Source: Microbotryomycetes sp. JL201
Taxonomy: Eukaryota > Basidiomycota > Microbotryomycetes
Reading direction: 5' to 3'
Assembly: GCA_033819885.1 (NCBI GenBank)
Contig: JAQYUZ010000062.1
Span: forward strand, 1-64,000
DNA: 64,000 nucleotides
The translations under genes and the position numbers were made by a program. Below are positions 5,477 to 63,848 of this stretch, in pieces; position 1 is the stretch's first letter; every line of letters starts with the position of its first letter. Under the pieces are notes generated by a model. It did not search any database. It had not been told where the DNA came from and was given only the letters and a program-made list of their open reading frames with translations.

Positions 5477-8400
5477 TCAGCCAAAATCCGGAGTGATCCC
5501 ATTATCTTCGGCACTCGCTTGTTGCAGCTCAGCAAAGACGTCCAGCAGAGACTCGTTCTGGAGAGTAGTGACGTGCTCAACGAGCCACCGCACATCGTCA
5601 CGCAGTTGTAGCAAACCGAAGTCGCTGATCCGAGCGGGCTCGGCATCGACGAGATACGACTGCGCGCAAGCTGCTCAGCATAGAAGACTACCGTCAATGC
5701 ACAATGTTGCACTTGCCGAAAGCAGTGAGGCACAATGTGACAGCGCGCCACGATAGACATAATCCTTCGAGAACTCTGGCAGCTGGATCAGAACCGACAT
5801 CATAACGGTCGTCAAGAAGTCGATCAAGTCTTGCAAGAATGCGCTGGCGTCGCTCGACTTGGGAGGACGCGAGGCTGTCCAGTCATATGAAGCTTCCTCG
5901 AAGAAAGAATCCATCTTCTGCGAAATATTGGACACGATGCGGTCTTGCGTCAAACTGAGCGTGTGCTGGAAGGACGCTAGCGATTCGAGGTGCAAGGTGC
6001 CGCCACGCTGCGTGGCACTGACGGTGGCGCGAGTCAGTCACGAGGAAGACATGCTTGCAGAAAGTCCATTTACCGCAAGCTGACAAGCAGATTTTCGAGC
6101 TCTGCACAAGCCGTTTGAAAGAATAGGACATTGACGACAATTTGCGACAGCTGAGACAGGTTACTGATCATTTGTAGCCGACGCTGTATATTCTCGCTAA
6201 CTTGCTTGATCAGCAAATTGTCGAGAGCCTGTGAGGAAACAGTATTAGCGGCCAGATACAAATTTAGAGCTGCGCCACCTCGCCTTTCGGAGGACGTCAT
6301 CAATGTCGCGATGATGCTCAGCGTAGCCATCAGAAAATTGATAGTATTGTTCCGTGAACGAGCGAATGTCGATGCAGCAGAGAGGATACGTCTGCGAGAA
6401 GGGCAGCGCCAGTGGGAATCCCGGACTGTCAACGAGGCGTCAGCCCAATCCATCAACATAATCGCAAGAGTAATCGGCACGTCTCACGCTCGGAGCTCTG
6501 CTTCACTCCATTCACCGGTCGCCGGCAGCCAGCTCACGCTGACCACTTTATTGAACTCTTCGACATCGTTGACGACCATAGATTGATGATCATCGTCGAG
6601 AACAATCTGGCACGTAAAGCAGACTCGTCACTGAACGAAGTGAGTTCTGATAGGCTCAAGCCTGCCTACCTGCTCGAAGTCGCCGCTAAACTTTCTCTGC
6701 AGCAATTGCGAATACCGCTCGAACAACGCGAGCAAGAGGGCATGGAGTTGGTGCACAGCATAACCGTATCCCTGTGCAGGCGTCAGCTTGGTACGGCAGG
6801 AAAAGACAAGATGCCACTTCTAACGGACCTCGAGAGCCTGAACAAATGTCATGACGCGCAGTTTGGTTCCGAGAAACACCTCGGGATCTTCACATCCTGC
6901 CAGTCCATTGTCGACCACAGCGACGATACGCTCGCACATACCGGACCATAGGTCCTCCACATCCTGCTCTGAGCGAAAGCCGTTTGTTGTTCTCAAAACT
7001 TGCGACTCTATCAGGAAAAAGCCGACGATGTCTTCCAAAAGCGAACTGAAGGCCTCGAGAGTGAACGAGTCAAGATCCGCTGACTGGGACAGAATCAGCT
7101 GCGCTTGAGCCTGAACGTGACCTGCACTTGTCAGCTGTCATACAGTAGCAGTGCACAATGGTCATGACTTGCCCTGCGATCGGCCTGATAGCTGAGCTGC
7201 AGATCTTCGAGGGCGTCCAAAGTTTCGTAGATATGTATGCACCTAAACAATGGCTGAAATCCGATTCTGACAGTATCGTTATCCAGTGCATTGTCTGCGC
7301 AGGCGTTCAGTCGTTGTATCAGCGCAAGTGCGTGTCACATCGGCTAGAATCTTCGAAGACGTACATTCATGACGCTCACTGAGGCCCAATTCAACGGAGC
7401 CATTGATCTTCGACAGCGCCATGTTTGCCTCTTTGCGTTTTTTTGCGTTCCAACGCCTGCTTCGAGCTTCCATTGCATCGAGCGCTCCTTTCCCGACAGC
7501 GCGACTGGCTTCACGCGCGTCGAACATCCATGCTTTGAGCGCCTTGGTGACCGATTCGCGTATGGAATTACGAGATACGGAGACAGATGACGCCATCAGA
7601 GCAGCGAAAGGATAGTGCGATACAGTTTTGAGCCGAGTCGCTTGCAGGTCGTCGAGTTGCTGCCAAAAGCGAAACAGATCAAATGAGCTCGGGATTGTGA
7701 ACCTCGGGAAACGAGTGGAATGGATAGCACGTACCCTCAAAGCTGCAAAATACTTGCCGCTGTCCGCCAGAGAGGCAATGTTGTTGGCTGCGTCCAGAAC
7801 TCGCAGGCATGTTTGCAATGTGTCAATCGCATCGTCGATGTTTTGTCCTACCCTTCTTGCATCCAGCAAACCCTTTTTCTGTGTGTGGCATTCCAGTCAG
7901 ACGCGGCTGACGCCGACAACCCTGACGCCGGCGAACCTTGACCATTACGGCTGCGCCACTCTTTTGTACGTCATCGTTCAACTCGATGACACGGTGTTTG
8001 AGAGAGATTGTTCCTTGTCTGACTTTGAGAAGGGCGGTGACCGAGACGACAAAGTCCTGAGACATTGATAAGCGGTCAGCCGTGAACTCGAAAGTATGTT
8101 CAGATGCTGCTTGGCTTGATCCGGCGCCACGGCGGGATGAGCGCACACGTACTCACTTGGTACGATTGAGCACACATCGCTTCGATCTCAAGCTCCTTCT
8201 CCCGGACAAATGCCTTGAGAGCCTTGAGGTAATCATTTTGCTGTCGGCTCTTGTGAATGTTGGCTCTGCAAGGGCATGACGGCATGTGAGCAACCGGCAG
8301 ATTCCGAGCGCGCACACACATCGACTGGCATTGTGCTTGCCCCTGAGCTTACATGATTGATCCGAGTTGTTCAATGTCGCCAGAGACGTTTGACGATAGC

Positions 8401-16432: not shown

Positions 16433-16686
16433 GGCGCACACGCCGAATGCCGAGTCGGACAAAGTCACTTCTCCTCATTGGACGCACGCGGGAACTTTGA
16501 ATTGAAACAACACACACAATTGAGAAAAGGTATCGGCCACAGAACACGCTTCCTCGAACATCAAAATTCCCCGTCCACACTTTCCAAAATCAAAATCAAA
16601 CACCGGCCAGAGCTCGACTTTCTGCCCAATCCGAAACATTTGCCAAGCAGCGCGTCATCTTAGAGTCAATTGACACTAGATAAAAG

Positions 16687-19600
16687 TCAATCGCTGACGC
16701 GCTGTAGCGAGAAGCACTTGTCGCCATCGGCCACGATAACTGCGGGGTTGCTTTCGTCAGCGACCATTTTTCCGGCTTGCAACATTGAGCGAGCTTACTC
16801 TGGTTGCGAGTACCCTGGCCACGGAAGCCGTACATACTCGGCACACCTCCCGTGCCCGCCAAGCCGCCATAGTACGCAGCAGACGACGCGGCAGGCGGTG
16901 TATCTGCAAACAAGCAACGGATATTGTTGCCAGGGATGACTTGCATGAGCGCGCCCGTCTCGACGTGTCGCACTTCGATGAAGGTCGGCTCAAAAGCAAG
17001 GACGTAAGGGTAGTGCATCGCTGCGGGACCTCTCGCTGTCAGTCCTGCAGGCGCCGACTACTGAAACAAACTGTGCGCTCAAAACTCACCAAAATTGGTC
17101 GGAAAGCCTTCCCATTGAATGAGCCAATTCTGTCGCGCTCGCCAACCGTTCTTGTTGACGTAGAATGCAAACTCTGAAAGAATAAAGCGGTTCAGCTAAG
17201 GAGGAACAACTTTCTCAAGACCGACAGAAAGCTGACCATCGTAGCAGAGCAGGAATTCTCCATCGATGCGGTAAATCGCAATCGGTCGCGTACTTTCGCG
17301 ACGCTGAACGAAATCGAGCGACGAGTCGGCCGGATCCAGCAGCCCTTGCGTATCGAGCGTCTCAAGGTCGACGATCTCGAAGCCTTTGCTGCATCCGACG
17401 CACAATTTGGACTTGAGAAAGTGTACTGAACTAGACTCTGTCGGAATGTAGAATTCCTGGCCAGATCCAAGCTCGCGTAAGTGAGCGGCCCCCTCAAGAA
17501 AAAGAGGCAGCGTCGAACTCACCTTGAAGACGCGCAACGACTCGTTGCTGCCCTGCAAGAATTTTCTGATCGTCGGTTGCTTCTTGCCTCTGACTTGGTC
17601 GACTGGCTCGAGCGTCTTGATCGTGCTCGACACTGAGCCAGATTTGACGACACAAACCAGAGTCCGCCCGAGACATTGTCCCGCTTTGAAGAAAGTGGCA
17701 TGTGATGAAATCTTGCGTGCCCGCTTGGCAGCACCAATGGCGTCTCCGGGGTCGAGATGCTCGACGAAAAATGTTTGCACAGCCTTGTCTGCAGATCAAG
17801 TCAGCTTCAAGCGCAGCGAGCAAGTCGGGATTGATGATTAACTAACCGGCCAGAACAATTAATATGCCATGCTCCTCGAGCACGTCAAGCTGCGTCACGG
17901 CTGGAACGGAAATGACTTTGACCGGCACCTTGGTCTTCTCGCGAAGATCCGCGAGGTATACTCCATTGTCTGTGCCGTACACCATGCGATTGCCGTTGTC
18001 TGCAAAGCACCAAGTTAGTTCTTCTAGGCGAGATGTCACGTGCGATTGATAGACACTTGCCGAACGGCGCAGCGCAAGTCACTCGATTGGTTCCGACAAA
18101 GTAGCCCGCACTTAACGGCAACGTCTCAAACACCAAACTACGTTCTCTGAGCTCGTTCTGTCGATGTTCAATCTTTTCAAGCCACTTTTTCCGGCTCGAC
18201 CACGACGCTGCCCAGAGCGTGATCTGATAGCCGCGACGACCAAGGTGAATGAAAGTCAAGGCAAAGCCCTGCTTGCTGTTTTTGTCGACGCCTGGCGGGG
18301 GGTTGGCTGCATGTTTGATGATTGCGCCGCGAGCTGCCAGCGACTTGGGTCGCATCGCCCCAGCCCGAGCCTGAGCTGGATCATCGATCGGCGCTACAAC
18401 GAGAAGCTCAAGAGGTATAGGCTGCAAACGGCAGAGTAAAACAAAAAAACAAAAGTCAGCACGCAGGACACGAGGTCTGGTTGGTAAGGAATGTCGGATC
18501 ACCTTGCGATAGACTTTGTACTGCTCGTTCTTGCTTTTCTGCTTGACCATGAGAATCGCATGGTCAAACAAAAAGACTTGAAGCTCGGCGCTCTCGCTCT
18601 GCGTTCCACCTCGTTTCTTGAGAGGTCCTTTGAAGATCATTTCGCGATCCTCATCTCGCAGTCGCAAGTCCTGACAAGTATCGCGCAGTGTTAGAGGCCA
18701 GCATCAGTTTCAGACCACCGTTCACGCACAACAGCCTCTCCGTTTTTGAACACAAGCTGTTGGTCAAGCTGAGCAAGGTTGAACCTGTTTTCGCTCTTGC
18801 CAGATTCGACGTTGACCTTGTTGAGGAATTCTCGGATCAAAGTGATAACTTTGGGGATGATGAGTTTGTCCGGATTGTCGTCGGGCGTGTGTTTCAGACA
18901 TGCTTCCAGGAGAAGGGGGTACCGAGCCAGACGCGTTGTTGGTTTAGTCAAGTAACCATTGAGTTCCAGCTTGCGCGACTCTGGTAACCTCTCCGTTTCC
19001 TGCACAGCAAGGATTGGTCCATTCATGTGCCTGCCCAAATTGAGACCGCGCAAGGCTTACCTCGACAAACTTTGCAAACGCCGGGTTCGACCCCTTTTCT
19101 TTCTCAAACTCATACTTTCCGTACAACTGATGCGCTCCGTACTTGACAAACGGTGCAAAGTGTGGCACAATGTCCAGGAATATGTCACCTATTTTGTCCA
19201 CGACGTGCGCGGATTTCTGTCGCTTGTTGAGCAGTTCGGCCAGTCGAATATTGACAGAGTGAATCTCGAGGATGTTCCAAAACACTTGCGTGACAAAATC
19301 TTCACGCCTGTTCTCGGGTATGATGTTTTGCGTCCGCAAAGGCTTGATCCAGCACTGAGCAAAGGCACGTCAGCTTCGCGTAGCCCAGCAGTGATGCAAG
19401 AAGGAACAGCTCACATCGCGTATGTATTCGAGATCCCGGACAAAATCGCGCTCTGTGTAGAAAACTTCGTTCAGAGCTTCTTGTCGCTTCTTTTCTTTGT
19501 CTGTTGTCGCATCGACCACTTCTTTCGGCACCGAGTGAATCCACAGCGAGCCCGGTTCCTGCGAGCGCCAGAATACGAAGGTCAGCGGTAGCTCATCAAC

Positions 19601-21631
19601 TCATGCCAGTATATAACGAATGCGACTTGCTCTCAAATCACCGAGAGATTCGGTAGACACGCTTCGTTGCAATCCCGGCTTAGGTTTGAGGTTGAGCCGA
19701 GCCTGCTGTTCCAGTCTCCGGGGACAGGCAATACTGTAGCACAGTCTGTCACGACTGCACGTCGGCGAGTAGCAATCGGTCAACAACGTGAATACGCCGG
19801 AAGGGAACGAGTCTTCGGACGAGACAACTGTGTCCGTAAGCGAGTTGCGTCGCCGGACGTCGACCTGTCCGGCAGGTCCTTCTACAGGTGCGACACTGTC
19901 GTCCGGAGACATGAACGAGCCCGTCAGACGTTCGCGGAACTGATACAACTCGTACGGCGAATCTCGCAATCGATGGTCATATGTGACGTCGTGGAAGAAT
20001 TTTTGAGCATCAAGTGCACGTCCGAGCAGGAGGGCCAGGTTGCGGTCGGATGTTTTGATGATGTAGGCGATTTTGTCGACAGCGTCACGGCCATCAAAGC
20101 AGTTTGGGTACACGAGACCGTCTTTGACTCGTTCGCTGACGGCGACACGTCCGCGAAACGCTTCTGCTACTCGAGAGAGCAGAGCCGGGTAAACTACCGG
20201 GGCGCGACGGGACAGTGGCGGGCCATATGCCGACGGTGTGATTGCATCTGAACGGCTGTGCATCGAGTCAATGCTCCTCATGTCGGGCCGTTCTGCTGCC
20301 GAGAATGAAGAAGCCCGATCCTGCGGGTACGCGCTTGTTTTCGGTTGCGTTGGCAGCACGCGCACAGACTCGGACGAGCGGCGGGGATTGAGCGAAGCAA
20401 AGGACGGTGCCGGGCTTCCCGCGCCTGATGCTACAAAGCTCGCCTGCGACGGGTAAATCTGTGCAAGTGGCCGAGGCTCGAACCCGCCAACTCTGTGCAG
20501 CGACAACCTGTCACTGTCTGCCGAACTGCGCCTGGATTCGAAGCTCTGGTGCATGTACGACGGCTGCTCTACGTATTGAACTAGGACAAAGAAAAGGCAT
20601 TGAGCGGAGTGTAAATGCTTGAACATGTCAGACTTACGCGTTGCAGTGGCGTCAAAGTTGGCCGCGCCGTTGCGGTAGTTGGCCGAATCGTCGTACGGTC
20701 CTGGATCGAATAGCGACCCTGGCGACCCTCCCCTTGACACGGGTCTGTTGATTGTTGGTGTCGTCGGAGATGTGTGGTGACCAAAGCCTGCTGCGCCTGC
20801 GCCGCTGCCCCCGCCGCCACCGAGCGACGATGAGGAATCTTGCCATTTGTCGTAAGGGCCGGCGCGGCCGTCAAACCCGAAAAAGTCGTCTTCGATGCTG
20901 CTGCTGTTGTTGTTGGAGAACCGACGGATGTCACTGTGCAGAGGCTGCTGCTGCTGAGCGAATTCAGACAAGTGCGTGCCGTGAACCGAGTGCGACAAAG
21001 ACGTGATCGACGAGATGGATGGTCTCGAGGACGAGGTTGATGAGTATGGGGCAGAAGACGTCGAGGATGCAAAGCTCGAGCGTGGTGAGGCAAATTGATG
21101 CCAGTGTGGCTGCTGCGCTGGAGCAAAGTGGGCCTGCGAGGGCTGGCCGTGCGCGCCAGTCGAAGCAGTATCTGCGATGCTGACCGTGTCATCCAAGGCA
21201 ACAGACTGTGGCCTGTCGTACATGCTTGCCCTGCTCGGCGGCATGGCGGCGGTAGCGGCGGGGTCTGAAGGTTGAGTCGGCCATGGCGCGTGCGACGCGT
21301 GAGCGTGTTGCGCTGCCTGTGACAGTGGCTGCTGCTGCTGCTGATGGTGGTGGTGGGGGTGTTGGTGAAAGTATGAATGATCGTAATGGAGAGGCGGAGG
21401 TGCAGCAGAGTACGGGCCTGGGTGTTGCGATGGTTGAGACCTCGGTTGGTATGACGACGATGCGACGTTTGACGGCGCGGACGCGTACTGTCCGCCGGCA
21501 GAGTATGCCGACACGGATTGATTGTGACCAAGTGTGTGCGAGCCGTGCGCGTTCGCAGGTGCCGGGCGCCTAAAGATGTTGTCAAAGGCCTCGGTGCGCG
21601 ACGAGCGGCCGCCGTGCAGCGGGTACGCCAT
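16687..21631 (-). CDS. ROM2: Rom2-like Rho1 GEF (DEP-DH-PH-CNH)
   Basis: A guanine-nucleotide exchange factor for Rho1, acting in cell-wall integrity and polarised growth. The N-terminal third (21631 to about 20300) is low-complexity, with His and Gln runs and serine-rich stretches. A DEP-like segment follows near 20150-19900 (YPNCFDGRDAVDKIAYIIKT, LGRALDAQKFFHDVTYDHRL). The RhoGEF domain lies at about 19600-18700 (FVTQVFWNILEIHSVN, YPLLLEACLKHTPDDNPDK), the PH domain around 18670-18150, and the CNH domain from about 18000 to the end (PYVLAFEPTFIEVRHVETG, NIRCLF, NPAVIVADGDKCFSLQR). The stop is TGA at 16687. The last intron is ambiguous: a GTATGT donor giving 66 nt, or a GTAAGC donor giving 23 nt, with the same phase and acceptor. 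Start MAYPLHGGRSS is the first ATG of the long first exon. Confidence 0.87.
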
Positions 21632-21892
21632 CGGCCTCGCTGCCGTGCCCTGGTGCGCGCGCTGCCGGTGCTAGAGCACGATCCGAGAGTCGGGGGGAGG
21701 GGCGCGCGCGCGCGCGCGTGTGGACGGCTGAGTGACGGGGGTCGACGATCGTCGTCCGAGCGCCTGTGCAGTGGGGCGCAGCAGCAGCCGCCGCCGCCGC
21801 CGCCGCCGCCGCAAGCCGAGTCTCTGAACGGAGCTCTGTTGGCGCCCATCCTTCAAATCCCGCTCCCGCTCCCGCTCCGACCTCGCCTCAGC
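21632..21892. promoter_or_regulatory. Divergent ROM2/acyl-CoA dehydrogenase region with simple repeats
   Basis: The region between the two start codons holds an alternating GC run (about 21702-21718) and a CCG-type trinucleotide run (about 21784-21812). Both are simple-sequence repeats in non-coding DNA. Promoter elements for both genes should be here, but no consensus box is evident. Confidence 0.5.
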
Positions 21893-40765: not shown

Positions 40766-43311
40766 ATGCTCCGATTGCAAGCGACCAAGCGTGTGTTGAA
40801 CAGCACTGCCAAGCCTTCTGTTGTCGCACGTGCCTTGTCGTCCTCTGCTCGCCCTGCTGTCCGTCGCTCGTTCGCCGCCGGCCACGTCTCGTCCTCGCCT
40901 TTCATTGCTTCAAAGCTCGCTCCTTTCGGCGCAAGGATGGCTCACGGTTCTGGAGAGTCGAGTGTGAGTGGCACAGGCCAGCTTGTGACTCGCAAAGAGG
41001 GCTCGCTTGACGACACACGCGTTCGCCGGTCAAGCCGTCGGATGCGCAGCTGCCGTTCTTCACCCAAGAGCCTTTGCACGACGCGGTCGACATTCCTGCG
41101 ACCTTTCTCAGCTCCTTCAGCAAGACCTGACTGACACGCGCCCTCCTTCTAAAACCCGCTGTCGTTTTCCAACGGCTCGCCGGCTTTCAGGTTCGACCGG
41201 ATCCCGACTCTGTCCTCGTCGACATCGCAGACTAGTATGTCCCAAACTACCGCAGATCGCTCGAAGAAAGCCAAGCTGACCTTGTGTGTGCGAACGCGCA
41301 GTGTCCACAACTTCAAGGTCAGCTACAGTCTCGTTCGCGCCAAATTCATGAGGTTTCGTCCGCTAATACGTCGGAAATGCGACGCGGCTAGATTGACAGC
41401 GCAGAGGCTCTCAACACTGCCCGTTTGACTTTGATCGACACGATCGGCTGCGGTCTTGAAGGGTGAGCGTCGAGGTCTAGGCGACCGCTTTCCCAAAGAC
41501 TTTGCACTGATCACGCTCAAATCTGCACCGTCAGTTTGCGCATCGATCCCGACTGCAAGGCGCTCATGGCCCCTATTGTCGAGGTTCGCCCTCCACCCGT
41601 CTGCGCATTGGCACCTCGTCATTCTAACCCCTTACTTTCGTGCGATCTTGCAGGGCACGACTGTTCCGAACGGTTCCAAGATTCCTGGCACTCCTTTCCA
41701 GCTCGATCCTGTGTACGTCAACATGGGCTGCCCACCAACCTGCGAGAACTGACCCTAGATCTGCGGATCCAGTCGCGGCGCCTTCGCCATCGGCACCCAG
41801 ATCCGCTGGCTCGATTTTAACGAGTGAGTCGCAGAACGCCCGCGCAAATTGCAATTTCGAAACTGACCGCGTCGATTCTACAGCTGTGAGCATGGGCATC
41901 TACTTGTTTTGCAGAATGGCTGGACGAGGCCACTTACTTTCGCATCGGCCAACAGGCTTTTTGGCTGCCGAGTGGGGTCACCCTTCTGACAACTTGGGCG
42001 CTATCCTGGCTGTCGCCGACTGGATCTCGCGAACCAACGTTGCCAACGGCAAAGCGCCCTTGACAATTCGCGATGTTCTCGACGGCATGATCATGGCTCA
42101 CGAGATTCAGGGTTGCATGGCCCTCGAGAACTCGTTCAACCGAGTTGGTCTGGACCACGTCATCCTCGTCAAGCTCGCGTCTGCCGCCGTCGTTTCCAAG
42201 CTGCTCGGCCTCACTCGCGAGCAGACGATTGACGTCGTCTCGCACGTCTTTGTCGACGGTCAATCATTGCGCACGTTCCGACACGCGCCCAACGCCGGTT
42301 CTCGCAAGTCGTGGTCCGCTGGTGACGCGTGCCAGCGTGCCGTGCACCTCGCCATTGCCGTCCAGCGCGGCCAGATGGGCATCCCCACCGTACTGACGGC
42401 CAAGACTTGGGGCTTCTATGACGTCCTGTTCAAGGGCAAGGAGTTCAAGTTCCAACGCCCGTACGGCACCTACATTATGGAGAACGTCCTGTGGAAGATT
42501 TCGTTCCCGGCAGAGTTCCACGCTCAAACGGCAGCCGAGGCGTCTTTGATCTTGCACAACAAGCTCAAGGAGCTTGGCAAGTCGTCTGACGACATCAAGC
42601 ACATCAAAGTTAGGACTCAGGAAGCTGCCATTCGCATCATCGACAAGAGTGGTCCGCTCAATAACTTTGCCGATCGTGACCATTCGATCCAATATATGAT
42701 TGCCGTTCCTCGTGCGTTGGCGCCTCCAATCACTTCCCGGTCACTCGTGCCTCTTTTCTGATAAGGACTTTCTGCCTTCGCAGTCATCTTCGGTCGCCTG
42801 ACGGCCGAGGACTACACCGACCGAGTCGCTGCCGACCCTCGCATTGATGAGCTGCGATCAAAGATTCAATGTGTCGAGGACAAGACGTTCTCCGCAGAGT
42901 ACCATGACCCCGAGAAGAGGTTCATCGGCAACGCTTTGACAATCACCTTGAACGACGGTACTGTGTTGGATGAGGTTCATATTGACTACCCCGTCGGACA
43001 CAAGCGTCGACGCGAGGAGGGCACGCCTTTGCTCGAGGCCAAGGTGCGTTTGAATGCCACCCTGCAAAAGTAGATCACTGACATTGGCGTTGATAGTTCA
43101 AGCGACACATTGAGCCCCACTACCCCGCCGAACATGTTCAAAAGTGAGACCAAGCTTTGCAGACAAAGAACAATGCGACCGAGTGCGCTTTGCTGACGCT
43201 CGGATTCGCCGTGTCCCCTCCTATAGGATTCTCGATGCCGTTGCAGACCAGGCCAAGCTGGAAAAGATGCCCGTTCAAGACTTTACAGACTTGTTTGAAA
43301 CCAAGGCCTAA
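40766..43311 (+). CDS. 2-methylcitrate dehydratase (MmgE/PrpD family), mitochondrial
   Basis: Dehydrates 2-methylcitrate in the methylcitrate cycle that clears propionyl-CoA. A targeting peptide ([20 protein letters not shown]) precedes [64 protein letters not shown] and [20 protein letters not shown]. Then come [53 protein letters not shown], and near the end [16 protein letters not shown] and [10 protein letters not shown]. The frame can only pass from RWLDFND to [10 protein letters not shown] if a 2-nt exon (CT, 41884-41885) is used between introns 41824-41883 and 41886-41955. All other introns are GT-AG of 50-110 nt. The start is the first ATG before the targeting peptide. Confidence 0.9.
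41884..41885 (+). other. Inferred 2-nt micro-exon
   Basis: The dinucleotide CT lies between TTCTACAG and GTGAGCATGG. Joined as GA|C and T|GC it yields Asp-Cys and restores the family motif [17 protein letters not shown]. Both flanking introns (60 and 70 nt) have GTGAG donors, plausible branch sequences (ACTGAC, CTTAC) and AG acceptors. It is inferred from frame and motif only. Confidence 0.65.
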
Positions 43312-43518: not shown

Positions 43519-46500
43519 TCACCTCCTCGCCGTACTTTCATCAGACAGGTACACCGACACGGCCAAGACTTCATCACCACCCGCCTTCGTCAGGGCGTTG
43601 ATCAAGCCTTGTCTTGATGCTGTGGGTAAAATGTTCCAGAGCCTGTCCATTTTTTCGTCATCCAGAACCGTCTTTGAATCAAAAGTGCCATTTGCATTGC
43701 TCGTCAAATTTGAGGTCGGCTCGATGTAACGATCGACAGGTGGCATCTGTGTCTTGTGCAGACCGCCGCCGCCGCCGCCGCCGCCGCCATTAGCTCCAAC
43801 TTGATCATCATGCGAGCTATTGTTGGGTTTGACCATGTTGTGATTGTTGCTGCCTGCCAAAGTCGTTGAAGAGTTTGTCGACGTCAAAAAAGAATGCGAA
43901 CTGTCTAGAGATTGACGAGGCATTCGAGGACCCGACATGCCGACTCCTCCTCCTCCCCCTCCAGCAGCCGATCTGACAGCGTTTGAAACGCTGTGAACAC
44001 TGTTGCCATGGCTGTTGTTGCTGGATTGAATTGACGTGAGCGTGCCAAGTGACGCCGAAGTCGTCAGATTCGTTGGCGGTCCAATAACAGGTCGCGTCAC
44101 GCCACTTGCGCTTGTCTGACCTGCAACGCCGCCACTTGTCCCACCAGCGTTCGCTCCATACATCGGACCTGAAATGGAAGCGGTCGCTCGTTTCGAAGCC
44201 TTGCGACCGAGTCCAAACAGGGCTTTGCCAGCCGTCGTCTTTGAAGCAAACTTGCCAGACACGCCAGGGTACGGCAACGGCGAAATTGAATCACGTGGAC
44301 TTGGTGCAACATCCGGATAGATCTCTCTCGCCCGATGTCCTTCACCTCGGCTCGGGAAGGTTGATGACGAAGAGTCCTCTCGTGCCCTTCGAGACCGGTC
44401 AAACGGAGAAAGTTGCTGTAAATGTGAGTGTTGTCCAAAACCAGCAGCAGCAGCGGCATCACCACGAACGAAAGACACCCAATCTTGCAAACCGCTCGCA
44501 TCTTGACGAAGAGAGGTAATCTTGCCAAGGTACACTGCTGCCCGAGCTCCTGCAGAGTGACACCGCCGAAGGTCGGGTGCAATCTGTAGCGCAGGCGGAA
44601 GTGCTCGCCGTCGATGGAGGCGCCTGTAACGTGGCATGAGGTTTTGTTGCTGCGCTACGGCGATGCTACCGAGGTAGTCGGCCTGGCCATGCGGAGTAGC
44701 CACTGACGAATGAGGTGGAGCCGTCGGTGATGGCGAGAGCGAAGTCTGTGATGTGCGTGCGTGAGTAGACAATGCAGACGAAGCATAAACAGGAGCAGAC
44801 GGCGACGGTATTGTGTGTGCTATCTGCGTCGGGGCGGGAGACGGCTTAGCTGGTGGTGGCGGGAGCGCCGACTCTATTCGACTGGTCGAGGCATCGTGGT
44901 TAGCGGCTAGATCAGCCACAGGCGAAGACGCAGGCGACGGGGCAGCGACGTAAAGAGACGGCGACGATGCATCGGAAGGCAGGCCAGTCGACAGCTGCGC
45001 CGTCGAATTTGGCGTCGAAGCTGCCCTTCTCAGATCGGCGACGAATGCTGCAGCTCTGGCTTTGGCATCTGCTCGAGGCGAGTCTTGGCGCTCCCCGGCT
45101 TGCGCGGAAGAGCTCGGCTTGGCCTGCAGAGGCAATGGCGTTGTCGCTCGGCTGTTTTCGCTCAGCGGCGCCGGGTGAGTTGGGTCGCTGCTGGCAACGC
45201 GGGCCATCGGCGCATCATGGAACACGTCGTCGCTCATTTCGGAACTTTGCCGATTGTAGAGACTGTCTTGATGCGATGCTGGGGTCTGTGCGCGACTCGT
45301 TACTGGCGCTGGCGAAAGCTGTTCATCTTGCTCAGAAATGCCGAAGCTCAACATGGCACTCGAAAGATCCGCATCTTTTCCGGACAGTTGCTCGGACATC
45401 GATACGTCACGCATGGACCTGTTACTGAGCGAGTCGACATCATGTGCTGGGCCCGCAATTTCGTTAGACAGCGAACCGCGGAGGTAATACGATGACGGCC
45501 GCGAAGCGGCGATGCTGCCGTCGAACGAAGACGTCCGACCAAACTCCGTCCCACCGTACGTCTCAACAAAGTCAGTGGCCGACAGAGGAGTATTAGGTCT
45601 GAATTCGCCGAAAGAAAGTCAGCCATGCCGCGCCGACCTGTGAGCGTGAACAGCGTGACAACTGACTGTGTCAAACCATGGCGCGAGTCCGAGTCTGCAA
45701 AGGAGTACAAACTCAATCGTTGCGGATCTTGAATACTGCGAGGCGTTGCTTCCGCCAATTGCTGCGAGCTTGGTGATGTTGCTGGTCCCGCCAAGCTCGG
45801 CCGCCGTTGCTGAGCTGTAGCAGCTCTGGGTGAAGCTGAAACAGCTGTCGATGGTTCAATTCCTTCTTCTCGTACCACCTGCCGCTGTTCTTGTTGCTGC
45901 TGCTCTTGTTGCTGCTTTCTCAACTTCATGATGCTGGTCCGTTTGCTGCTTTTTTCAGGCGGCGGCATCGGCAGCTCTCTCCGAGCTGGCCTTCGCGTAG
46001 GCCCGCTAGATGCAGTAGTGGGTCCATCAGATCCTGACCTGTCTCGCGACGGATGATCGACAATGGTCGGCCGAGCAAATTGCGAGTCGGGACCAGCGGA
46101 CTCGAGTGAGTCGGCGAGAGAGCAGACCTGGGTAGACTCGTGCGCTTGACTTGAGCTGAGAGAGACAGCCAGTGGACTCGAGGTTGTGTTGGCGTAATCC
46201 TGCCCTGTAGACGGGCTATTGGCAAGGCTTCTGGCCGGAGACGATTGCCTACTAGAACGTCGACTCAATGGCGGGGTGCCAAGGGATGGCCGGCTTGGCA
46301 CATAAGCTGATGGTTGCGGGGTTGAAGGTCGCGCTGAAAGTATTGAACGTAAATACCGTCGCCGTCAATCGCAGCCGACCACAAGAACTCACAGGGCTGC
46401 GAATCATCCCAATCGAGAGCCTTGCCTACCTGGGACGGACTCGTCTCGGGTACCAGGCCATTATTATCGTTTTTTGTCGCCTCTCCAGCAAATTTCCGCG

Positions 46501-59114: not shown

Positions 59115-62100
59115 TCAAGATGGTGGCGAAGATTTGCGCTTGCGAGCAGCCTTTGACGAGCTTCCTGCCTTGCCAGACGACTTTCCTTGGATATAATCAA
59201 CCAGCTCGTCGACGCTCAAATCTGCTTTCTGTCCGTGCGCCTTTGGCTTGGAAGTCGCTGCAGCGACGCCACTCGCCTCGACATTCTGTCCGTTGGAGGC
59301 GGCAGAGACGCCGTTGACGCGAGAACCAGACGACATGCGTGCGCGCAAGCTGTTGTCCGTCATCAACTTAGGGAATTTGCGCTTCAATCTGTCTTCCCTT
59401 GCTTGCTGTTCGGCGCCTTGCCTGGAGATTTGGTCCGAGATGACTTCGATCAACAGTTTCGTATCAGACACGTCCTTTGAATCGGCAGGCATGTTCTTTT
59501 CCATGATCGCCAACGACGCTTTCATGTAGGGCAACGCTTTTTCAAAGTCTCGGTTCGTTGCGTAAACTTGACCCATCGCTTGTTGGGCAGAAGAGTACGC
59601 GACAGAGTCGGTTCCAAACAGGCGCTCGGCCAATTGCGAGGCTTCCTCGAGCAGAGGCAAGACCGACATGGGCGAAAAGGACGCTTGAAGCATGGTGATG
59701 GCCGTGTTGAGCAAGTTCAAAATGGCCGAGTTTTCGGTGCCGTACGCGTTAGCCCACAGCAACATGGCGTGCTTTGTATACCTCAGACCAGCTTCGGCGT
59801 TGCCGACAAACTGCTCGAGCAGACCCAAGTCGGTGTACTGCTGGATCGTGTCTGGCGCGTCGAGACCCAAAGTGCGCTCAGCGATGATGACACCTTGGCG
59901 AGCCATGCGAACGGCGTTCATCATGTACGCGTCTTGCTGCGCGCGCACGCCGTCAGCGTCCTCAAGCACGAGGCCGCCATACTTTTCCTTGACTTCGTCG
60001 GTCGCTTGCGGATCTTGCAGGGCTTGCTGTGCAGCCATGTGATACTGAAGCTTGCGCGTCAAGCTGTTGGCAAGTTGATGGTACACTGCAGTCATGAGCG
60101 TCAGCTATGCGTTCCCAGTGTGTTCAGAAAGTTGCGAGACTCACAAATCGCTAAGTCGTGGTACTTGGTCGACGCCTCGGGATGGACACTGCCGAGCACT
60201 TGTTCACACAATTGCAGCGCATCTTGCGCTTGTTCGGACGCCAACTCAATCGACCCTTGGCTGAAAGATCTTTGAGCCAGCTCAAAGCTTTCGTCAGCCA
60301 AATTGCTCTGGATCAGATTGATCGGTCAGCTATCTAGGCTCGTATGGACTCATCAGTCTGTCGGCTGACCTTGGCGATGCTAGCTTTGACAACAGGCGTC
60401 ATATTGAGTATGTCATCAGCTTTAAACGTCGCCGACGGCAACTCGACTGGTTTGGGAGCAGCATCTTGTTTGGCAGCTTTGCCCTTTTTCTTTTTACCGC
60501 CACTGCTCGCGGTGGTATTGACAGTCGGTTGCTCCTTTTGCTCTGCTTCAGGGGTCGATGTTGCGCCATTACTGTCACGTGCCGTGGCCACGAACTGGTA
60601 CGGTCGCGCAACAAGCTGAACACCGACGCGCGTGCACAGCTCACGAAGGATTTTGCGATGGACAAGACCCTCAGACAATACTGATGCAGGCAGAGTGTAC
60701 CTGAAGCGCGCCTCTGCCTCTGACACAATCTGTGATCGCAGGCTTTCGGGTGTCAATGACGTCCATTGACGCTCGACGACGACGTCCATGCCCAAGTCGG
60801 CAGTCTCGGCCACTGGCTTAGATTGGAATGAGGCGCCGAGCAGGCAATTGAGGAAGTGTGCAACGATATAAGGGTGATCGTACAGTTCTGATGCTTTGAG
60901 CAGCCGGTTAAGAATGTGCTTGCTGGCACGGATGACCATCTCGAGCTGAAGGGCAAGCTGTATGAAGCGTTCGCGAATGTCAGCAATGCAGTACCGAGAA
61001 AGGGTCAACGAGCGTCGCACTCGCCTTGAGCGATTTGAGAGCTTCGTCCGTTTGTTCCTTCAGGAACTCGCGTCGCAACTCAATCTTGTCGCCCTCGGTG
61101 TCAATCTTGTCAACCAGCGCGCCGAGATACCTCATGTTGATGCCCTTGCGGTGCATGAGTTTGGACAGCAAGAAGCCGTCCGTAATGGCGTTACCCGATG
61201 CGACAACTTCCGACACGAAAGACATCAAAGCTGTGTCGCGCAAATACTTCGATGCCGCACGAACATTTTTAGACGACTCTTCCTCGGTATCATAGATGAT
61301 GACTGGCTTGCCACCTTCGGCCGCCGGTTTGCGCTCTACAAACGCGTCTGGGTTGAACAGGAGGACAAAGTCTTCGGCGTTGATGACCGAGGTCGGCACT
61401 TTCTGTTCGTCTGTTTTAGGGGACTCGGTGTTGTTGTCCTGCGCCGCCTCTTTCAGCTCAGACTCGATAGAGCCAGCAGCGGCCTTGTCCGCGCTCTCCT
61501 TCTCCACTCTGTCGCGCGTCTCTTTGACGCGCTCCTCAAGCCATGCCTTGAGCTGAGCGTCATGGTAGGTGTTCAACAGCTCTTCGCGCAGGAAAGCCAG
61601 ACGGTGTGGGTAAGGCGCAGGCGAATGCACGCCGTTTGCTTGTGCATCGGTCTTGTCAAAGAACACCTGTCCCCCCATAGAGTTGTCGAGCCACTCTATG
61701 TCGACGCAATGCATACGGAAGCAATCGATAAAGTAGCTTCTGCCATCCGGTGCCGCGATACCATGAACGTCTGTGCTCGTCCAGAGCTTGGTCTCTTTGC
61801 CTTGAGCGTCCTTGACCGTGTGTTCAGCAAAGCGCAACTGCTTGGCAACTTTCTCGGCCAAGCGGTGAAAGTACGCAGACGATCGGACCTTGTCGTCTGG
61901 TGACTCTGGAATGGCACTGCCGTAGACGATCCTGAAGGAGCCGGCTGGCGGGTAATCGTCTTTGTTCGCCGTCACGTCTGACGGGAAAGGCTTGTCATTC
62001 GCCGCAGCCTCGGTCGCTGATTTGCGGCCCTCGTTGTCGTCTTCCGGCAGATCCTCGGCCGACACGTCTTCGTCGTCCTTGGTCTTGAACAAGCCCGGTA

Positions 62101-63848
62101 TCAGTGACTGGGCGACCCATCGCTCACCTGCGTAATCGATTATGACGGTCGCCATCGAGTGAACGCCATCGACATCCAAGCGCTCGAGCATGTCGACGCC
62201 GCGCGAATCTTTCGAAGCGGCGTACCTGCTTGCCTCGTTGCCGCCGACGTGCGAGTACGCGCCGATAGCGTCCGCGGCACGAGTGAAGAGCATATTGTTG
62301 TGAACCCATGTGTGCGCTTCAGAGGCTTCGTTGGGGTTGAGCGGAGGAATGTCACCACGGGCGATGCTCATGGCCGTCTTTGTGGCGGCGGCAACAAAAT
62401 CGGCCTTGACGCGACTCTGCAAGCGCTCACGCACGAGGCGTTCAGCGACGGATGTTTGTGGCATTTCTTTGAACTGGGCATATTCGTCGTTCCAGTCGCG
62501 CGCGGCCGGCAAGACGTCTGCAGAGGTCGCGTTCGTCAACAAGTAAGCAAGCTGGGTCCTAAAGGCGTCCGGGCCGTGTTGAGGCGCATGCACGAGCCAA
62601 GGCGCTGGCGGCACATGATGCGTGATAGGAAGCGTCAAGTACACTTCGGGGTTGCCGGCGTGTTGTTGAGAGGCGAGCAGCGTCGATAAAGACTTGGAGA
62701 ATGATGGCGACAAGGCGGCAAGAAGCTCAAACAGTGACCGGTATGGCTTGCTTTGCATCTTGTTGGGCATGACAGCGCGGGGAGATGGATCAAAGACGTT
62801 GACTGTCATTTTTGAGACCCAGAAGCCGTTAATGGCGCCCGTGATGTGGAACGCTTCGCCTTCGAGTGTCGAAACCGTCAGGTAGACGAGGTCGCCGCGC
62901 AGGCGACGGGCATGTGGAGGGGGGCTCCACGGTGAGACGCCGAGAGCCTTGACGCAGGGTGACGATGTCGACGTTGATGCTGCTGGCTTGAGATAGCCGT
63001 ACAGACTCTCTGGCTCAAGCTCGGCGAGGTGAAAGTTTGTGAACGGGTGGTCAGACTCGGTAATGCCAGGCGCAGCGTCTGCAGTTGCTTCTTCTGTGAG
63101 ATTTTCTGTACATTCTCGATCAGACATTGGCGTCTCGTGAACACCTGGCAAGACCGTTCTCACCTCTGGCGTTCGCCATCGAATTACCGCGGACTTGTGA
63201 GAAGACGGTTGAGCCGGATGCGATTGCCAGGCTGGATGGGTCATACGTGCCGTGCGCAGGCAATGTGACCAGCTGGGAGGACAGCGTGTCCCTGACGCGG
63301 ATCACGTGCTGGTTCATTGCAAGAGCGGAAAATGCCGCTGAAAAGGCGACCCAAGGTCAGCGTTGGTAAGTTCGGCGCAGTCTATCGATCCAGGACGACG
63401 CACTCGGCACAACCTTCAAGCCGCGACGCTTGTCATCAAAGTCGCCTGAGAAAACAGCTGCCAAGTCTGCATAGTCGCCTAGGACGCCCTCGGACGTGAG
63501 ACGCCATGCCTCTGGGTTGACTGCGCCTGGCGTGGGTTGCTCTGCCGGAAGCAATTCCTTCCATTCTGACCAGTTTGTCTCTTGTGTGCCGTCTTCTGTC
63601 TCGTGCTCGCCTAGTTTGTCTGCGACGACCGGTTTCAAGCCAAACGAGCCGAGCCAGAAACCTTCAGGGGACTCGGTGATGATTTGTTTCAGCTCGTGGA
63701 CAGGGTCAGTCAACTGCGATGGCAGGCTGAGCTCGACGTATTTGCCATCTGCGGATTTCGTGGCGCCTGAGCGCGCGGCATCGACAAAGTCCTGCGTTGG
63801 TACAACCAATACGAGCTCGAACGCGGGCGAGATGGCAGCAGCGTCGTC
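59115..63848 (-). CDS. CLU1: Clu1 (clustered mitochondria protein), 5' end unresolved
   Basis: A cytosolic RNA-binding protein that controls mitochondrial distribution and is also known as eIF3-associated Tif31. Domains in order: an N-terminal CLU_N-type segment (VHELKQIITESPEGFWLGSF); GTYDPSSLAIASGSTVFSQV and the Clu core, with GRSYFIDCFRMHCVDIEWLD at 61690-61760; the central-region motif LEMVIRASKHILN; and C-terminal TPRs (QQYTDLGLLEQFVGNAEAGL and ALPYMKASLAIMEKNMP). The stop is at 59115, after a Lys/Ser-rich tail. Introns cut the gene near 61000, 60300 and 60100; the one at 60958-61024 is best read with a GC donor (GCGAGT), though in-phase GT donors also exist. The coding frame continues upstream toward the window edge, and no convincing start codon is seen, so the gene probably begins beyond the window or in an unplaced exon. 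Confidence 0.9.

Follow-up and report, generated by a model that had tools for sequence, protein, structure and literature searches.

A predicted two-nucleotide exon between two short introns in a fungal 2-methylcitrate dehydratase gene

The 2-methylcitrate dehydratase (PrpD) gene in a 64-kb window of fungal DNA (the whole stretch analyzed, 64,000 nt) was predicted to contain an internal coding exon of two nucleotides, CT, at 41884-41885 on the plus strand. Constitutive inclusion of this exon through the sequential removal of two short introns is the reading we favor, with a probability of about four in five. The two-nucleotide internal exon had been put forward in an earlier note on this DNA, and the computational evidence presented here, namely reading frame, protein fit and splice-site quality, supports it.

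Homology-guided splicing of the PrpD gene on the plus strand, from 41191 to the stop codon at 43309-43311, gave a product of 479 amino acids. The product matched the N and C domains of the MmgE_PrpD family (PF03972, E 1.2e-57; PF19305, E 7.6e-22 and 2.2e-27), and its residues 1-475 were collinear with solved PrpD structures (1szq, E 4.2e-207; 5mvi, E 2.6e-208). As judged from these matches, the spliced gene is a fungal 2-methylcitrate dehydratase of the MmgE/PrpD family, an enzyme of propionate breakdown. The coding exon at 41191-41234 was collinear with both structures, and its 5′ boundary is likely. Upstream of it (40766-41190), an ATG at 40766 was followed by a likely targeting peptide, and this 5′ part of the gene probably contains at least one further intron. 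The next exon in the model, at 41302-41317, is itself small: its 16 nt, read as VHNFK, are flanked by introns of 67 and 74 nt. Three coding exons at 41392-41462, 41535-41583 and 41654-41712 were placed by the gene model and the PrpD structure alignment, and are followed by the exon at 41773-41823, which ends RWLDFN-GA in phase 2. Beyond the interval under study, the exon at 41956-42711 encodes a large part of the MmgE_PrpD N domain together with the beginning of the C domain, and that at 42784-43043 encodes C domain; both were located by domain match and structure alignment. Another exon placed by the gene model and structure alignment (43097-43143) precedes the last coding exon (43227-43311), which ends with the stop codon TAA.

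The window has a G+C content of 55.2%. It carries a fungal transcription factor domain and short GT-AG introns, by which it appears to be fungal; a basidiomycete source is a guess. On its minus strand, open reading frames at 16599-21670 encode DEP, PH and CNH domains in that order, and presumably represent a gene resembling a Rho1 guanine nucleotide exchange factor. Minus-strand open reading frames at 59118-63301 matched CLU (clustered mitochondria), eIF3_p135 and TPR domains and probably form one CLU-type gene, and an exocyst Sec15/EXOC6 N-terminal domain was found at 7282-7896 on the same strand. Downstream of the PrpD gene, about eight CCG triplets at 43763-43788 lie within a minus-strand open reading frame (43522-45618), where they read as poly-glycine.

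The evidence for the CT exon begins with a break in the reading frame. As the earlier note had stated, the upstream exon ends with AAC GA at 41823 in phase 2, and the downstream frame resumes as GC TTT TTG GCT GCC from 41956 in phase 1, so that the two cannot be joined directly. Removal of all 132 nt between them (41824-41955) would shift the frame, adding 11 residues after the N of RWLDFN before a stop codon. Retention was predicted to be no better tolerated. If the first 60 nt or the entire 132 nt were kept, a Glu codon (GAG) would be followed at once by a stop (TGA), and if only the last 70 nt were kept, translation would stop after 35 residues. Exact skipping of CT and all three forms of retention would truncate the protein.

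Because removal of the whole interval breaks the frame, two nucleotides must remain. This consideration bears on a stwintron, that is, an intron lying within the donor, branch site or acceptor of another, with all 132 nt removed. Stwintrons have been described in fungi, and the interval does consist of two tandem units of normal intron size with almost nothing between them; a stwintron, however, leaves no nucleotide by definition, and its complete removal would throw the outer exons out of frame. We regard it as extremely improbable. A zero-nucleotide recursive splice site, in which AG is followed directly by GT, was rejected, as CT separates the two dinucleotides and the frame is also against it.

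All single internal exons within the interval were then enumerated that were preceded by AG, followed by GT or GC and flanked by introns of at least 20 nt on each side. Six kept the frame without a stop codon. The exon CT was the only one with a GT donor, and the other five, all of which require GC donors, were rejected. With CT included, the mature message would read AAC GA|CT|GC TTT TTG, encoding N D C F L, in which CT supplies the third base of the Asp codon (GAC) and the first base of the Cys codon (TGC). Of the canonical GT-AG solutions found, the CT exon alone preserves the frame, the length of the protein and its invariant Asp. An intron finder based on codon usage, a measure too weak for this purpose, returned no candidates. 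A scan that joins open reading frames found candidate introns in other parts of the 64-kb window, comparable in size to these; they entered no count.

The fit of the predicted protein was assessed against the best 80 of at least 545 relatives, all of them bacterial by title and all examined. No fungal PrpD locus was present among these best 80, drawn from a prokaryotic collection, or in viral contigs. The 20-residue block spanning the junction contained no insertion or deletion in any of the 80 bacterial orthologs, and its Asp was invariant (80/80). The residue after Asp was Thr in all 80, followed by Trp in 79 and Phe in one. Under the CT model, 18 of the 20 positions carry the commonest bacterial residue, and Cys and Phe stand in place of Thr and Trp; both departures fall at the exon junction, and they count against the model. 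The earlier note had presented NDCFLAAEW as a conserved family block. Its length and its Asp are indeed restored, but the bacterial consensus is NDT (80/80) and NDTW (79/80). Asp-Thr-Trp was also found in each of the five structure alignments shown, which include that of a cis-aconitate decarboxylase. A pattern scan in which LAAEWGHP was fixed and the Thr codon left free was run on three sets of genomes and matched 36 of 398, 7 of 396 and all 6 of 6. The set of six shares two genomes with the larger sets, and its six sites are loci among the 80 orthologs. Each of the 48 distinct sites (47 genomes) encoded Thr-Trp. The Thr may be absent from some fungal PrpD proteins. In sum, AG-CT-GT lies between phase-incompatible outer exons and restores frame, length and Asp, but not Thr-Trp.

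The conserved block probably belongs to the active site. A docked substrate is described as contacting D91 and H102 in the related enzyme of B. subtilis (PMC7347537). Judging from their spacing, these residues would correspond to D in LDF and H in GHP. The predicted splicing would rebuild an active-site motif of 2-methylcitrate dehydratase with no residue gained or lost.

Five models of the junction were compared by scoring their products against a profile of the 80 orthologs. The CT model scored best (824.4 bits), followed by a non-canonical GA-AG intron (821.9), a one-base loss (814.3) and single introns ending at 41914 (803.7) or 41890 (802.7). Phe is encoded by the downstream exon in every model compared except the one-base loss, and only the CT and GA-AG models yield the Cys.

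The margin of the CT model over the GA-AG intron was only 2.5 bits, which counts against the CT model. A single intron of this kind, starting at 41826, would keep both frame and length and give N E C F. It would, however, need GA as its donor right next to a GTGAGT and put Glu in place of an Asp that all 80 orthologs share, and it leaves unexplained the internal series CTGAC-TTCTACAG-CT-GTGAGC. We hold it to be highly improbable.

A single ordinary intron could also be masked by an error of base calling or assembly close to the junction, such as in the run of five T at 41958-41962, as a loss of one base or a gain of two would mend the frame as well. To this we give very little credence: the one-base loss, as modeled, gives a product that lacks the invariant Asp and reaches 814.3 bits against 824.4, an intron of 132 nt would be the longest in the PrpD gene, and an internal acceptor and donor of the observed quality, two nucleotides apart, arose by chance in only one of 20,000 shuffles (see below).

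Splice sites were scored with a matrix trained on the eight other introns of the PrpD gene only, the focal sites being excluded. Under the CT model, the first intron (41824-41883, 60 nt) would run from GTGAGT through the branch-like CTGAC to an acceptor at TTCTACAG, and the second (41886-41955, 70 nt) from GTGAGC through CTTAC to CAACAG. Both donors scored high, at 7.75 and 7.13 for introns 1 and 2, compared with 5.5-7.8 in the training introns, and acceptor 1 scored 5.61 (training range 4.1-7.5). The claim that CT sits between a good acceptor and a good donor was therefore upheld, both scores (5.61 and 7.13) being inside the range of the eight other introns. The flanking introns also look like normal introns of this gene. 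Their sizes are within the 53-83 nt of the eight others, both are bounded by GT and AG, and both carry a branch-like site, with 17 nt from the A of CTGAC to the end of acceptor 1 and 19 nt from the A of CTTAC to acceptor 2. Acceptor 2, however, scored 3.52, the lowest of the ten introns (minimum of the eight others, 4.1), and its branch-like site is CTTAC, whereas intron 1 and the eight others have CTRAY. No other intron among the ten is as weak as intron 2, and this counts against the CT model.

The earlier note had named a single in-frame alternative, an acceptor near 41913. Such a site does exist, TTTTGCAG at 41907-41914 with its AG ending at 41914, and its use would add a net 13 residues and lose the Asp; it is not the only one, as AG 41890 is also in frame. 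The latter was rejected (net gain of 21 residues, a poor site at GTGAG, profile score 802.7). A single 91-nt intron, 41824-41914, ending at TTTTGCAG would leave the reading frame open throughout and use a strong acceptor (6.59, above both focal acceptors), giving an enzyme with 13 extra residues and Glu for Asp. We nevertheless consider it very unlikely. It would place an insertion in a block that is free of insertions in all 80 bacterial orthologs, replace the invariant residue, and lower the profile score to 803.7 from the 824.4 of the CT model. Moreover, the distance from branch site to acceptor would be 48 nt, as against 15-30 nt in the eight other introns, and a good AG at 17 nt would be skipped.

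A possible origin of intron 2 as a copy of the other 70-nt intron (41584-41653) was rejected. Overall identity was 26 of 70 positions, a value reached in 3655 of 20,000 shuffles. The two introns share a match of 12 of 13 nucleotides around CTTACTTTCG at the same offset (0.005, uncorrected, for the best of 45 pairs).

The probability that the arrangement around CT arose by chance was estimated from 20,000 dinucleotide shuffles of the 132-nt interval. A bare AG-NN-GT at a usable place was common (936 shuffles), and 526 shuffles also restored the Asp. The stricter YAG-NN-GTRAG with the Asp occurred in five, and sites flanking a 2-nt exon that both scored at least as high as those observed occurred in one. 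Across the 64-kb window, YAGNNGTRAGY was not enriched (3 found, 3.42 expected), and the argument thus rests on its position exactly inside the phase-broken interval. A composite of CTRAY, 8-24 nt, YAG, 2 nt and GTRNGY, composed after the site was known, occurred once in the window, at the focal site. The expectation was 0.77 per window (60 shuffles), so that the improbable part is its presence in this one interval; for a given strand of 132 nt the chance is about 0.0008.

What the analysis demonstrates is the frame logic, the quality of the splice sites and the fit of the protein; the splicing itself, its order and its constitutive use are inferred. In the interval 41824-41955, the exon CT would be flanked by two spliceosomal introns of ordinary type, both of them short (60 and 70 nt). 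U2AF/U2 and U1 can hardly engage an acceptor and a donor 2 nt apart at the same time. As acceptor 1 and donor 2 are separated by only these two nucleotides, each intron would be recognized through intron definition, and their removal would be successive. Intron 1 is likely to be removed first, since it outscores intron 2 at the donor, the branch-like site and the acceptor alike, and its removal would leave GACT|GTGAGC for the second step.

How such an exon might have arisen is a separate matter. Rescue of a lost base has been proposed as the origin of such tiny exons (PMC12940212). A comparable history for CT, in which bases were lost at an intron border within the active-site motif and a cryptic AG-CT-GT was recruited that restored the frame and the Asp at the price of Thr-to-Cys and Trp-to-Phe changes, seems to us unlikely. 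If it were true, the efficiency of CT inclusion could also set the level of the enzyme, since skipping and retention would truncate the protein.

Exons of one or two nucleotides are not unprecedented, as 1-nt exons with transcript evidence are described in plants and in a fungus. In Arabidopsis, APC11 is reported to contain a transcript-backed 1-nt exon in an intronic stretch of 422 nt, for which intron definition and successive removal were proposed (PMC4674806). The resemblance to CT lies in an internal exon of minimal size and the proposed stepwise removal, and the differences in the plant host and the much longer intronic stretch. APC11 is discussed together with VPS55, a second plant gene with a 1-nt exon, which is backed by RNA-seq and RT-PCR (PMC8831610); unlike CT, these two exons have been tested experimentally and occur in many land plants (PMC4674806, PMC8831610). 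According to work cited in PMC12940212, Arabidopsis, Drosophila and humans have exons of 2-5 bp. A longer regulated microexon is the subject of PMC11121469, and PMC8022950 and PMC3990503 mention a mapping option only.

Among basidiomycetes, bglA of Sirobasidium magnum and Rhodotorula minuta is described with shortest exons of 5 and 6 bp (PMC9142197), and the shortest exon of Phanerochaete P450 genes is given as 6 bp (PMC1184071). These genes resemble the PrpD gene in being intron-rich, with short introns and tiny exons, but their exons are of at least 5 bp. No 2-nt fungal exon was found among the matches listed from the open-licence literature, which, being confined to open-licence papers, is weak evidence that none was described earlier. 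As far as that literature reaches, CT would, if true, be the first fungal exon of 2 nt on record. It would leave the known principle unchanged, since 1-nt exons are already documented. A 2-nt exon that forms part of an active-site codon in a conserved metabolic gene would offer a sharp and simple test of sequential intron definition. Exons of 1-2 nt show that, in genomes with short introns, splicing can do without an exon of any measurable size. Standard annotation may overlook such exons and leave conserved enzymes truncated or garbled.

Stwintrons and recursive, zero-nucleotide splicing (PMC4674806) share with the CT case consecutive excisions at adjacent sites, but leave no nucleotide in the mRNA, where the CT case must leave two. 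The closest parallel is the cytochrome P450 gene CYP621A of Fusarium, reported in 2026 to contain a 1-nt exon, G, on the basis of 20 orthologous genes and 18 transcript reads, one of which contained intron sequence (PMC12940212). There, too, in a fungus, the outer exons are incompatible in phase, an exon bounded by AG and GT restores a conserved motif, and the apparent intron, at 139 nt, is over twice the usual length (PMC12940212). The CYP621A exon differs in its size of one nucleotide, its ascomycete host and its support by reads and orthologs (PMC12940212). It was inferred by the same logic as the CT exon and then supported by reads, and we count it in favor of the CT exon.
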